Part shown: positions 45,033 through 49,608 of the stretch, piece by piece | How the letters are laid out: each line of letters begins with the position of its first letter | Position numbering within the stretch: position 1 is the first letter of the stretch | NCBI RefSeq assembly: GCF_028532485.1 | Contig: NZ_CP116942.1 | Span: 3,720,001 to 3,784,000, forward strand | DNA from: Iamia majanohamensis | GTDB lineage: Bacteria > Actinomycetota > Acidimicrobiia > Acidimicrobiales > Iamiaceae | Direction: 5' to 3' | Length of the DNA: 64,000 bases | Program-made: the position numbers and the translations under genes | The notes under the pieces: model-generated | The model's input: the letters and a program-made list of their open reading frames with translations, nothing else | Database searches by the model: none | What the model was told of the DNA's origin: nothing

Positions 45033-46676
45033 TCAGGCGCCGGCGTGCACCAGGCCGTAGACGATCGAGTCGACGAGGGCCTGCCACGACGCCTCGATGA
45101 TGTTGCTGTCGACCCCGATGGTGGTCCAGGTGTGCTCGCCGTCGGTGGAGTCGACCAGCACCCGCACCACTGCGCCGGTGGTCGACGACGAGTCGAGCAC
45201 GCGCACCCGGAAGTCGATGAGGTGGATCCGGGCCAGGGCCGGGTAGCGGCCGTTCAGGGCGGTGCGCAGGGCGTGGTCGAGGGCGTTGACCGGGCCGTTG
45301 CCCTCGCCGATGGCCACCAGGCGCTCGTCGCCGACCCAGACCTTCACCGAGGCCTCGGTGTCGACCATGGCCTCGTCGTCGTCGTCGATCGGCGTGCCGC
45401 CCCGGGTGGCGTGGCGGTGGTAGGTGGTGACCCGGTAGCCCTCCAGCGAGAACAGGTCCTGGCGCCAGCCGCCGGCCTCGCGCATGAGCAGCTCGAGCGA
45501 CGCGTCGGCCGCCTCGTAGACGAAGCCGAGGGCCTCGCGCCGCTTGAGCTCGTCGGTGAGGGCCGCGGCCGCGGCCCCGTCGAGCTCGACGCCCAGCTCG
45601 GCGGCCTTCATGGCCATGCCGGCCCGACCGCCGAGGTCGCTGACGAGCACCCGGGTGTGGTTGCCCACCACCGCGGGGTCGATGTGCTCGTAGGTCGCGC
45701 CGCCGGCCTTGCCCAGCCCCGAGGTGTGGAGCCCGCCCTTGTGGGCGAAGGCGGAGGACCCGACGTAGGGGTCGGCCGGGTGGGGCGGCAGGTTGACCAG
45801 CTCGGCCACGTGGCGGCTGACCGAGGTGAGGCGCTCGATGCGCCCCTCGGGCAGGCAGGTGATCCCCAGCTTGAGCTCGAGGTCGGGGATGGCGGTCATG
45901 AGGTTGGCGTTGCCGGTGCGCTCCCCGTAGCCGTTGACCGTGCCCTGGAGGTGGGTGGCCCCGCCGAGCACGGCGGCGACGGAGTTGGCCACCGCGCAGC
46001 CGCCGTCGTTCTGGGTGTGGATGCCGACCTGGACGTCGAGGTGGGCGACCACGTCGGCCGTGGCCGCCTGCACCTCGTGGGGCAGGGCGCCGCCGTTGGT
46101 GTCGCACAGCACGACGCACTCGGCGCCGCCCATGGCCGCGGCCTCGAGGACGCGCAGGGCGAACTCGGGGTTGGTCCGGTAGCCGTCGAAGAAGTGCTCG
46201 GCGTCGAAGAACACCCGCAGGCCCTCGCCCCGCAGGAAGGCCACCGAGTCGCCGACCATGGCCACGCCCTCGTCGAGGGTGGTGCCGAGGGCCTGGGTGA
46301 CGTGGAAGTCCCAGCTCTTGCCGACGATGCAGGCGGTGCCCACGCCCGCGTCGACCAGGGCCCGCAGGGTGGTGTCGTCGTCGACCTTCCCCGCCGGGCG
46401 GCGGGTGGAGCCGAAGGCGACGAGCTCGGCGGTCTCGAGCGACAGCTCGGACGGGGCGCGCTGGAAGAACTCGGCGTCGCGGGGGTTGGCCTGCGGGTAG
46501 CCGCCCTCGATCCAGCGCACGCCGAGGCGGTCGAGCTGCTCGGCCACGCGCAGCTTGTCGTCGACGGTGAGCGAGATCCCCTCGAACTGCGCCCCGTCCC
46601 GCAGCGTGGTGTCGAACACGTCGATCGCGGACGGAGCCCCCGCCGGCCGCCGCGGGTGCGCGTCGCCGTCACTCAC
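45033..46676 (-). CDS. cimA: (R)-citramalate synthase
   Basis: 547 residues, DRE-TIM lyase. FDTTLRDGAQFEGISLT is the metal/catalytic motif, followed by GGYPQANPRD, CDTNGGALPHE, GIHTQNDGGCAVANS and HLQGTVNGYGERTGNANL. A C-terminal LeuA-type regulatory domain occupies the last 120 residues or so. The length and HTQND motif fit the CimA group rather than 2-isopropylmalate synthase. It condenses pyruvate and acetyl-CoA for the threonine-independent route to isoleucine; LeuBCD-type enzymes, encoded here, then act. GTG start. Confidence 0.93.
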   Translation of the reverse strand: MSDGDAHPRRPAGAPSAIDVFDTTLRDGAQFEGISLTVDDKLRVAEQLDRLGVRWIEGGYPQANPRDAEFFQRAPSELSLETAELVAFGSTRRPAGKVDDDTTLRALVDAGVGTACIVGKSWDFHVTQALGTTLDEGVAMVGDSVAFLRGEGLRVFFDAEHFFDGYRTNPEFALRVLEAAAMGGAECVVLCDTNGGALPHEVQAATADVVAHLDVQVGIHTQNDGGCAVANSVAAVLGGATHLQGTVNGYGERTGNANLMTAIPDLELKLGITCLPEGRIERLTSVSRHVAELVNLPPHPADPYVGSSAFAHKGGLHTSGLGKAGGATYEHIDPAVVGNHTRVLVSDLGGRAGMAMKAAELGVELDGAAAAALTDELKRREALGFVYEAADASLELLMREAGGWRQDLFSLEGYRVTTYHRHATRGGTPIDDDDEAMVDTEASVKVWVGDERLVAIGEGNGPVNALDHALRTALNGRYPALARIHLIDFRVRVLDSSSTTGAVVRVLVDSTDGEHTWTTIGVDSNIIEASWQALVDSIVYGLVHAGA

Positions 46677-46953: not shown

Positions 46954-47865
46954 TCACACGACCTCCACCCAGTCCTTGTAGCGGTCGACCTCGCCGCGGA
47001 CGGTGCGGGCGTACTCGCGGCCGATGGCGAGGGTCATGGGCCCGATGGGGATGTCGCGGTCGTCGACCGACGCGACGGAGGACACCTCGGCCGCGGTGCC
47101 GCAGACGAAGGCCTCCTCGGCGATGTAGAGGTCGGAGCGGGCGAGGACGCCCTCGGCCACCTCGAAGCCCAGGTCCCGGGCGATGCTGGTGACCGTGCTC
47201 TGGGTGATGCCCTCGAGCGCGCCCGACGACAGGGGCGGGGTGAGGAAGCGGCCGTTGCGGGCCACGAAGATGTTCTCGCCGGTGCACTCCGAGACGAAGC
47301 CCTGCGGGTTGAGCATGATCGCCTCGTCGTAGCCCGCGTTGAGGGCCTCGACCTTGGCGAGCGAGGAGTTGACGTAGTTGCCGGTGGTCTTGGCCGCCGG
47401 CGGCATGGCGTTGTGGTCGTGGCGGCTCCAGGACGACACCTTCATGCGGACGCCCTTGGTGAGGGCGTCGTCACCCAGGTACGCACCCCAGGGCCAGCAG
47501 GCGATGGCCACCTCGGTGGTGCAGGGCAGGGTGTTGAGGCCCATCTCGCCGTAGCCGTAGTAGGCGATGGGGCGGATGTAGCAGGACGGCAGGCCCGAGG
47601 CGGCGACGACGGCCTTGGTGGCCTCGACCAGCTCGTCGACGGCGTAGGGCATGGGCATGCCCATGATCCGGGCCGACTCGTGGAGGCGCCGCATGTGGTC
47701 GGTGAGGCGGAAGATGCCGGGGCCGGCGGCGGTCTCGTAGGCGCGGATGCCCTCGAACACGCCCATCCCGTAGTGCAGCGAGTGGGTGAGGATGTGGATC
47801 TGGGCCTGGTCCCAGGGGACCAGCTCACCGTTCATCCAGATCTTCTCGGTGGGGGTGATGGGCAT
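46954..47865 (-). CDS. ilvE: branched-chain amino-acid aminotransferase
   Basis: 303 residues, fold-type IV PLP enzyme. MNGELVPWDQAQIHILTHSLHYGMGVFEGIRAY (in two parts) is the class IV N-terminus, the PLP Lys is in AAKTTGNYVNS near residue 157, and GFVSECTGENIF plus EGITQSTV complete the motifs. Last step of Val, Leu and Ile synthesis. Starts 15 bp after leuB, so leuB-ilvE are co-transcribed and share the attenuator leader. Confidence 0.95.
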   Translation of the reverse strand: MPITPTEKIWMNGELVPWDQAQIHILTHSLHYGMGVFEGIRAYETAAGPGIFRLTDHMRRLHESARIMGMPMPYAVDELVEATKAVVAASGLPSCYIRPIAYYGYGEMGLNTLPCTTEVAIACWPWGAYLGDDALTKGVRMKVSSWSRHDHNAMPPAAKTTGNYVNSSLAKVEALNAGYDEAIMLNPQGFVSECTGENIFVARNGRFLTPPLSSGALEGITQSTVTSIARDLGFEVAEGVLARSDLYIAEEAFVCGTAAEVSSVASVDDRDIPIGPMTLAIGREYARTVRGEVDRYKDWVEVV

Positions 47866-47880: not shown

Positions 47881-48891
47881 TCAGAGGAGGTCGGCGACGG
47901 CGTCGCCGATCTCGGGCGTGGTGGTGGGGCGGGGGCCGTCGGAGGCCCCGGACGGGTCGAGCTGGGCCGCCACGGCGGCGCAGGCGGTGCGGATGCGGTC
48001 GGCGGCCGCACCCTCGTCGAGCAGGTCGAGCATGAGGGCGGCCGAGAGGATGGCGGCCAGGGGGTTGGCCTTCTTCTGGCCGGCGATGTCGGGGGCGGAG
48101 CCGTGGACGGGCTCGAACATCGACGGCGAGGTGCGGTCCGGGTTGAGGTTCCCGGACGACGCCAGGCCGATCCCGCCCGATACGGCGCCGCCGAGGTCGG
48201 TGAGGATGTCGCCGAAGAGGTTGTCGGTGACGATGACGTCGTAGCGGCCGGGGTCCTGCACGAAGTAGATGCAGGCCGCGTCGACGTGGTTGTAGGCCGT
48301 CTCCACGTCGGGGAACTCGGCCGCGACCTCGTCGAAGGTGCGCTGCCACAGGTCGCCGGCGTAGGTGAGCACGTTGGTCTTGTGGACCAGCGTGAGGTGC
48401 CCGCGGCGCTGCTGGGCCAGGTCGAAGGCGTAGCGGACGCAGCGCTCGACGCCCATGCGGGTGTTGACCGACCCCTGGGTGGCGACCTCGTGGGGGGTGC
48501 CGTGGCGGAGGAAGCCGCCCTCGCCGGCGTAGGTGCCCTCGGTGTTCTCGCGGATGACGACCATGTCGATGCCCTTGGCCGGCTCGGTGAAGGGCCGCTG
48601 GTTCACGTACTGGTCGAGGGCGAAGCGCATCTTGAGCAGCAGGCCCCGCTCGATCACCCCCGGGGGCACCTCGGGGGTGCCCACCGCGCCGAGGAGGATG
48701 GCGTCGAAGGCGCGCAGCTCGTCGAGCACCTCGTCGGGCAGGACGGTGCCGTCGCGCAGGTAGCGGGCACCGCCCAGCTCGAAGTCGGTGGTGGCCAGCT
48801 CCACCCCCGCGGCCGCCACGACCTTCAGGGCCTCGGCGACCACCTCGGGGCCGATGCCGTCTCCTCCGATGACTGCCACCTGGTGGGCCAC
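47881..48891 (-). CDS. leuB: 3-isopropylmalate dehydrogenase
   Basis: 336 residues from GTG 48891, with an AGGAGAAGGA site. [13 protein letters not shown], the [10 protein letters not shown] motif, [44 protein letters not shown] (in two parts) and the [14 protein letters not shown] loop are present. It oxidises 3-isopropylmalate and, in the citramalate route, 3-methylmalate. Preceded by a leader with a Val/Ile peptide and a terminator hairpin. Confidence 0.95.
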
Positions 48892-48935
48892 GTCGTTCCT
48901 TCTCCTCCGATCGGGGGGACGGTCCACCCGCCCCC

Positions 48936-48973
48936 GGAAAACACGACGACCGCCCACCGGAGGTGGACGGTCG
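48936..48973 (-). terminator. attenuator hairpin in the leuB leader
   Basis: On the minus strand a 12-bp stem with one mismatch (GACCGTCCACC / GGTGGGCGGTC, loop TCC) is followed five bases later by TTTT (48941-48938), an intrinsic terminator inside the untranslated leader, 45 bp before the leuB GTG. Confidence 0.6.
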
Positions 48974-48976
48974 GGG

Positions 48977-49002
48977 GCGCACGCCGGGATGTCGACGTGC
49001 GC
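48977..49002 (-). promoter_or_regulatory. upstream hairpin after leader peptide
   Basis: GCGCACG/CGTGCGC 7-bp stem directly after the leader peptide's TAG. It fits the pause or 1:2 stem of a ribosome-mediated attenuator; the competing antiterminator pairing is not clear by eye. Confidence 0.4.
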
Positions 49003-49037
49003 TAGGCGATGATCGCTACGGGGGCCGACGGACGCAT
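49002..49037 (-). CDS. leuB leader peptide (attenuation)
   Basis: Eleven codons read [11 protein letters not shown] then TAG (an in-frame GTG precedes the ATG). Val-Ala-Ile-Ile-Ala near the end gives three branched-chain codons just before the first hairpin. TATGCT (49054-49049) ends 8 nt before that GTG, so the peptide would begin at the transcript's 5' end. Ribosome stalling when Ile or Val tRNA is short would relieve the downstream terminator; this is inference from architecture. Confidence 0.55.
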
Positions 49038-49048
49038 CACGGTCCGGG

Positions 49049-49054
49049 AGCATA
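49049..49054 (-). promoter_or_regulatory. -10 box of the leuB-ilvE transcript
   Basis: TATGCT on the minus strand, the best -10 match in the region, 8 nt from the leader-peptide GTG. Confidence 0.5.
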
Positions 49055-49127
49055 CGCCACCCGGCGTGCCCCGTCGCCCCGATCCGTGCGTGGCGGTCGG
49101 CCCGGGGTCGGTCCGGCCCGCCGTCGC

Positions 49128-49133
49128 TAGCCT
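49128..49133 (+). promoter_or_regulatory. -10 box of greA, leaderless pattern
   Basis: TAGCCT ends 7 nt before the greA ATG at 49141; no ribosome site between them. Confidence 0.5.
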
Positions 49134-49140
49134 TCCGGGG

Positions 49141-49608
49141 ATGCCCGAGACCACGCAGCTCTCCCAGGCCGCCTACGACCGGCTCAAGGCCGAGCACTCG
49201 GACCTCACCACCCGGGGTCGGGTCGAGATCGCCCGCAAGATCGAGACCGCCCGCGAGCTGGGTGACCTCTCCGAGAACGGCGACTACCACGCGGCCAAGG
49301 AGGAGCAGGGGAAGATGGAGGGCCGCATCGCCCACCTCTCCCAGATCCTGGAGGACGCCGAGATCGTCGAGGCGGAGAAGGGCGGCGAGGTGCGCTCGGG
49401 GTCGGTGGTCACCGTCCGCTTCGAGGGCGACGACGACACCGAGCGCTACCTGCTGGGCTCCATCGAGGAGCGCCACGACGACCTCGACGTCATGTCGCCC
49501 GGCTCGCCCATGGGCGCCGCCCTGCTCGGCCACGTCCCCGGCGACACGGTCTCGTACGAGACCCCCACCGGCGCAACCGTCTCCGTCGAGCTCGTCGACG
49601 TCGACTGA
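49141..49608 (+). CDS. greA: transcription elongation factor GreA
   Basis: 155 residues. N-terminal coiled coil with the acidic tip motif [22 protein letters not shown], then a C-terminal FKBP-like domain ([36 protein letters not shown]). Rescues backtracked RNA polymerase by stimulating transcript cleavage. Divergent from the leuB leader. Confidence 0.95.

Follow-up and report, generated by a model that had tools for sequence, protein, structure and literature searches.

A predicted isoleucine-responsive leader-peptide attenuator upstream of leuB-ilvE-cimA in Iamia majanohamensis and related actinobacteria

Introduction

Which signal, if any, is read by the short region that precedes leuB in Iamia majanohamensis? 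An initial annotation, made from the letters of a 64,000-nt stretch of contig NZ_CP116942.1 (hereafter the window; all coordinates refer to it unless stated otherwise), placed a leader-peptide attenuator there and assigned it to a leuB-ilvE operon. In this study, we asked whether the element is conserved, which amino acid its leader peptide would sense, and how a ribosome on the leader could influence transcription of the operon.

Materials and methods

A LeuB search covered 198 genomes of the order to which the source belongs (Acidimicrobiales), and 190 of them had a hit with E no higher than 1e-40. The upstream regions of the best-scoring 110 of these 190 leuB loci, including that of the source genome, were read. 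A covariance model was built from an alignment of 49 elements found in these regions. Codon positions are counted backward from the stop codon of the leader, so that -2 is the second codon before the stop. Codon tables were compiled from 114 leuB, 17 cimA, and 21 ilvB elements; L066, nine loci found by the model only, the leuB loci L161, L169, and L180, and the ilvB loci L162, L167, L168, L170, L172, L174, and L175 were omitted.

Results

Organization of the locus

Two genes that point away from each other flank the intergenic region. On the plus strand lies a greA-like gene (49141-49608), to which the best GreA model gave 155.8 bits, below the cut-off of 161; leuB occupies the minus strand, as do the leader elements and the other operon genes described below. 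leuB (47881-48891; 3-isopropylmalate dehydrogenase; NCBIfam NF002898, 499 bits against a cut-off of 393) starts with GTG at 48891 and is preceded by a purine-rich, RBS-like stretch, GGAGGAGAAGG (48898-48908). It is followed by ilvE (46954-47865; branched-chain aminotransferase; TIGR01122, 389 bits against 246) and, after a gap of 277 nt, by cimA (45033-46676; citramalate synthase; TIGR00977, 643 bits against 450). The family models confirmed the annotated identities of leuB and ilvE, and the operon of the initial annotation probably has to be extended by cimA. We infer that the three genes form one operon and that cimA is co-transcribed. A threonine dehydratase-type gene, above its cut-off, is also present in the source genome; hence, a second route to isoleucine is possible, and cimA is not necessarily the sole one. 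Upstream of leuB, every part that the initial annotation had ordered before the gene was found on the minus strand.

Promoter and start of the leader ORF

The TATGCT box of the initial annotation is present as a putative -10 box at 49049-49054, and a -35-like hexamer, GCGACG (49072-49077), lies at a spacing of 17 nt from it. The promoter of the source copy appears weak by consensus: no TTGAC occupies its -35 place, where the hexamer is GCGACG, and a promoter scan of this copy at 9/12 consensus matches found none. In relatives, -10-like hexamers are conserved and TTGAC occurs near the -35 place in 26 of 47. In 47 of the 49 leaders, an in-frame start that would give a peptide of 10-16 residues is preceded, at a distance of 6-11 nt, by a -10-like hexamer; such a pair arose in 7.7% of shuffles. 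The box scored was the best among those 3-12 nt 5' of a start codon. With a stricter box (at least five of six matches to TACACT), the counts were 28/49 and 0.4%, and with the box plus an upstream TTGAC they were 26/49 and 0.0 in 9800 shuffles. The shuffle control strengthens the promoter spacing in relatives, not in the source copy.

The leader ORF (49002-49040) reads GTG ATG CGT CCG TCG GCC CCC GTA GCG ATC ATC GCC TAG. Its in-frame GTG (49040-49038) lies 8 nt past the -10 box and would give 12 residues; ATG at 49037 opens an 11-residue ORF, and the TAG stop codon is at 49004-49002. Among relatives, a gap of 8 nt between the -10 box and the start is the commonest (14/47) and gaps of 7-9 nt account for 38/47, in a tally that scored the source copy itself from its ATG, with a gap of 11. 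The commonest leader length is 12 residues (18/47). Because both this gap and this length are the commonest in relatives, the GTG start and a 12-residue peptide are more likely. The Val-Ala-Ile-Ile-Ala ORF that had been annotated was confirmed, whereas its proposed length of eleven residues probably has to be extended by one, from the upstream GTG.

The promoter spacing suggests that transcription starts at or beside the start codon, which would make the leader peptide leaderless. For the leaderless leader of Corynebacterium glutamicum ilvBNC, the cited source is reportedly the work of Morbach et al. in 2000. In this system, the available text of a later report gives a distance of one nucleotide between +1 and the start codon (PMC11857589). 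Judging from the parts of two reports at hand, the initial annotation's remark that a leaderless leader peptide is unusual does not hold for actinobacteria (PMC11857589, PMC8079986). The divergent greA-like gene, with TAGCCT at 49128-49133 (+), 7 nt 5' of its ATG at 49141, also looks leaderless by sequence.

Hairpin 1 and the predicted terminator

A hairpin had been annotated directly after the stop codon of the peptide, and it was found there. Hairpin 1 (48977-49002) spans 26 nt, from the G of the TAG stop codon, which forms the first pair, to 48977. In 107 of 114 leuB, 16 of 17 cimA, and 20 of 21 ilvB elements, the hairpin begins within the stop. In the alignment of 49 elements, six of its nine pairs changed on both sides, and 96.4% of the cells were paired.

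The predicted intrinsic terminator (48947-48973) forms a stem-loop of 12 pairs, in which two nested terminator-like sites were detected, against a mean of 0.0 in shuffles. The hairpin and the TTTT of the initial annotation are both present, although the TTTT (48938-48941) is displaced from the stem: in the source copy, the U run begins 5 nt past it. In the 49-element alignment, three of the ten terminator pairs covary and six never vary. In hairpin 1 as in this part of the terminator, covariation was higher than in any of the 500 shuffles or any slid version, in a comparison whose shuffles ignore relatedness and whose structure was taken from the same sequences. The terminator stem pattern occurs once in the whole genome; a control pattern likewise occurred once, so that the single copy shows uniqueness rather than enrichment, and a generic genome repeat was ruled out. 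A U-G wobble in the terminator stem is seen as U-G in 99 and as U-A in nine of the 114 leuB elements, the remaining six giving no pattern match. Stability alone would not preserve this wobble.

Both hairpins appear in the minimum-energy RNA fold of a 158-nt stretch reaching the leuB start, the stability of which had a z of -2.2, with 5 of 200 shuffles folding equally well. Rfam covariance models, including T-box, assigned no family to the interval 48700-49300 or to eight loci; two hits were obtained, one in each of these searches and both far below the gathering scores.

Conservation and spread of the element

A terminator was recognized by pattern in 50 of the 110 leuB upstream regions of the order. 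In 49 of these 50, an Ile codon at -2 was followed by a stop codon 22-46 nt 5' of the terminator; the 49-element order set was chosen by a pattern requiring Ile at -2, and L066 (Ile at -3) was dropped from it. Shuffled leaders contained this arrangement of an Ile codon, one arbitrary codon, and a suitably placed stop in 1.5% of cases. The stop codon is TAG in 47 of the 49 leaders. V occupies -5 in 30 of 47 peptides, and I or V occupies -4 in 32 and -3 in 30, the first half of the peptide being variable. The conservation check proposed in the initial annotation, an alignment of leaders from relatives, thus came out in favor of an Ile-rich peptide and hairpins, with Ile at -2 in 49/50 and covariation in hairpin 1.

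Within the 110 regions read, many relatives lack the element before leuB. In the only same-genus genome examined (L003, G185), it is absent from a greA-leuB interval of about 100 nt. Among the 60 pattern-negative loci, the covariance model identified nine more elements at E below 0.001, two of which (L042 and L060) precede cimA rather than leuB; L026, at a contig end (0.0043), and L108 (0.013) were weaker hits. With an E threshold of 0.01 and irrespective of the downstream gene, the model matched 243 of the 395 class genomes. In a phylum sample searched with a threshold of 0.001, 38 of 396 genomes were matched, and 13 of these lie outside the class.

The downstream gene was checked in 70 loci, comprising the 30 best class hits and 40 hand-chosen further hits in the class and phylum: leuB in 33, ilvB in 27, cimA in six, leuA in one, and unassigned in three. 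The 70 loci include ten of the 13 phylum hits from beyond the class: five before ilvB, one before leuA, one before leuB, and the three unassigned cases. Of 80 loci of named genomes with a LeuB relative, the model matched 21 at an E threshold of 0.01. The closest named LeuB records were mostly Ilumatobacteraceae, Microthrixaceae, and Acidimicrobiales, with a few unlikely names such as Bifidobacterium breve. Records of Geodermatophilaceae (L304), Modestobacter (L297), and Kribbella (L327) have a match just before cimA, with hairpin and terminator, and their leader peptides end in TIIIS or VIIP. These three records are not labelled as metagenome assemblies, and they may supply strains for tests. 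Similar model matches in Actinomadura, Nonomuraea, and Acrocarpospora records have no stop codon at the usual place.

Control could also act at leuB translation or through a trans-acting peptide instead of termination. In the minimum-energy fold of the source copy, a portion of the leader ORF is paired with bases near the leuB start, and a trans-acting leader peptide, peTrpL, is reported for S. meliloti in the accessible portion of its source (PMC7298713). We consider control of this kind improbable, because a terminator with a U run belongs to the element before leuB, cimA, and ilvB.

Regulatory codons and the downstream gene

At -2, leuB leaders have I in 112 and V in two cases (n = 114), and cimA leaders have I in 16 and T in one (n = 17); these class elements were found by a model trained on the set with Ile at -2, which leans the counts toward agreement. 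The same model also recovered ilvB leaders that lack Ile at -2, and their residues there are V in nine, L in seven, I in four, and G in one (n = 21). Over codons -2 to -5, leuB leaders contain 235 I, 151 V, and two L (n = 456), cimA leaders 64 I, one V, and no L (n = 68), and ilvB leaders 11 I, 42 V, and 27 L (n = 84). The single leuA-linked element has a peptide ending in LLLT, with Leu codons. The source genome itself carries a Leu/Val version, MTAGTLLVLGP, before its ilvB (locus L183, upstream of 3802141 and outside the window), with a hairpin after the stop codon and a GACCTCCC/GGGAGGTC terminator.

Codon choice also differs between leaders and genes. Among the Val codons of the 49 order leaders, 29 of 55 are GTA, as against 45 of 1421 in the leuB genes that these leaders precede, and ATT at -2 is found in 36 of 49 leaders, compared with 46 of 743 in those genes. 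In the wider leuB set (-2 to -6), ATT accounts for 101 of 240 Ile codons and GTA for 62 of 157 Val codons, a weaker preference for GTA. Codons seldom used in the accompanying leuB genes are favored in the leaders.

LeuB works in leucine synthesis and in the citramalate route to isoleucine. Since Leu codons are nearly absent from leuB leaders although LeuB serves both pathways, isoleucine is the probable signal. The Ile/Val-rich end that the initial annotation took as the signal is kept in relatives, but the codon distribution (-2 is Ile in 49/50) indicates that the signal would be mainly Ile, with Val second. We regard the switch of codons with the downstream gene as the strongest evidence, albeit from sequence comparison, for ribosome-mediated attenuation.

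The same codon data bear on the idea that the hairpins terminate transcription early and constitutively, or mark the end of a small RNA, alongside an incidental ORF. A terminator that is strong by sequence and highly conserved would fit that idea. Nevertheless, the codons vary with the gene that follows, leuB and cimA leaders almost always have Ile at -2, and rare codons are preferred in leaders, all of which make an incidental ORF very improbable indeed.

Search for an antiterminator

In classical three-hairpin attenuation, a stalled ribosome would free the 3' arm of hairpin 1, which would pair with the 5' arm of the terminator before the terminator's 3' arm is made. Such a helix can be drawn in a number of the listed leuB-type sequences when the base of hairpin 1 is masked and the polymerase is at the terminator loop. 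Moreover, 85.4% of the cells in the candidate register were pairable in the 49-sequence alignment, against at most 66.5% in slid versions. However, this value equals the shuffled mean (85.3%), and no covariation was found. The leuB candidate pairing had an energy of -7.57 kcal/mol, compared with -7.93 for a shuffled arm and -7.46 for a shuffled leader, and the ilvB pairing had -5.01, compared with -7.05 and -6.87, respectively. The candidate energy was not above that of cross-pairings with other element classes, and the motif was missing from 47 of 110 leuB elements. An antiterminator formed by these two arms is thus unsupported by shuffles, cross-pairing, covariation, and wider sampling, and we regard the classical scheme as rather unlikely here.

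No consistent partner was found when both terminator arms were compared with upstream windows in up to 40 of 113 leuB, 21 ilvB, and 17 cimA elements. In several windows, leuB elements paired better with their own 3' arm than with a swapped ilvB arm (-8.4 versus -5.6 at the stop codon). The ilvB leaders paired equally well with the leuB terminator arm (-9.3); therefore, the 3'-arm pairing is read as an effect of composition.

Discussion

Leader-peptide attenuation, the proposal of the initial annotation, gains support from the wide conservation of the element and from regulatory codons that change with the downstream gene. We consider it highly likely that the element is a ribosome-mediated attenuator of leuB-ilvE-cimA that senses charged tRNA-Ile and probably tRNA-Val, and very probably it is a genuine isoleucine-responsive switch. 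Transcription would begin at or beside the start codon, and the leader would be translated as a leaderless message. With ample isoleucine, the ribosome would clear the Val/Ile codons, end at UAG, and depart. The stop-anchored hairpin and the terminator could then form, and transcription would mostly halt before leuB. When charged Ile-tRNA is scarce, the ribosome would wait at the Ile codon at -2 and, from an estimate of its footprint, cover the base of hairpin 1. Termination would thereby be reduced, and the operon would be transcribed. Several observations speak against this reading: no antiterminator was found, many relatives lack the element before leuB, the source copy has a weak promoter and a displaced U run, ilvE and cimA are 277 nt apart, and the genome has a threonine dehydratase-type gene.

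A ribosome is estimated to cover approximately 12 nt ahead of its A site. When waiting at -2, it would just touch the base of hairpin 1, and this would account for the constancy of the -2 position. The link from ribosome position to the terminator is itself inferred. One tentative and, in our estimate, doubtful proposal is an attenuator that needs no antiterminator: the stop-anchored hairpin would sense a ribosome on the last codons and act by a route other than strand exchange, e.g., ribosome-polymerase coupling. A single module would then serve Ile (leuB, cimA), Val/Leu (ilvB), or, in one case, Leu (leuA), in the class and elsewhere in the phylum, through exchange of the codons that precede the stop.

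The leaders described here form a natural codon-swap series, in which one stop-anchored architecture carries Ile, Val/Leu, or Leu codons depending on the operon downstream. The series extends over many families and includes some actinomycete strains. It makes the sensing position at -2 and the missing antiterminator directly testable. The data further suggest that the citramalate route to isoleucine may have its own RNA-level isoleucine feedback in this class.

Leaders of this general type are known for other operons. In the partial texts available to us, ilvB leaders with terminators are reported from Corynebacterium, Mycobacterium, and Streptomyces (PMC1262725, PMC10272879, PMC13236596). Like the present element, the C. 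glutamicum ilvBNC attenuator (IlvL), or ilvB-II motif, has a leader peptide rich in branched-chain amino acids, hairpins, and an intrinsic terminator, and its start codon lies beside the transcription start, as is predicted here (PMC11857589, PMC10272879). As reported there, it differs in lying before ilvB, in using Val and Leu codons, in having an antiterminator model with mutational support, and in a uORF that is usually of 15-17 residues and spans most of hairpin P1. The present element instead precedes leuB-ilvE-cimA, has Ile at -2, and its hairpin begins at the stop codon. The M. tuberculosis ilvB1 attenuator shares regulatory codons (LVVI), marked GUA, and a terminator with a U tract, but, according to the excerpt at hand, it has a 166-nt leader before ilvB1NC and a proposed antiterminator (PMC13236596). 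In Streptomyces lividans, leuL, ilvL, and trpL are likewise described as leaderless leader peptides followed by hairpins; the genes and codons differ, and no leuB-ilvE-cimA leader was found in the available part of that report (PMC8079986).

Seliverstov et al. (2005) surveyed actinobacterial RNA elements, including ilvB leaders, the LEU element, which is a conserved pseudoknot before leuA, and the ileS T-box (PMC1262725). In the portion of that survey accessible to us, ilvB leaders with candidate terminators are given for three genera, as in the present case, but no leader before leuB-ilvE-cimA or cimA was found. One further match, PMC12452182, concerns Bacillota T-boxes in its visible part and is not relevant to the present leader. 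A leader before leuB-ilvE-cimA or cimA was not described among the literature matches listed, which is weak evidence of absence. As in the leaderless branched-chain amino acid attenuators of actinobacteria, codons for the pathway product are enriched here (Ile at -2, with the codon switch), and a predicted terminator lies between the ORF and the gene. The leader before leuB-ilvE-cimA would thus be a new, widespread, and isoleucine-specific member of an attenuator type that is itself already known in actinobacteria.
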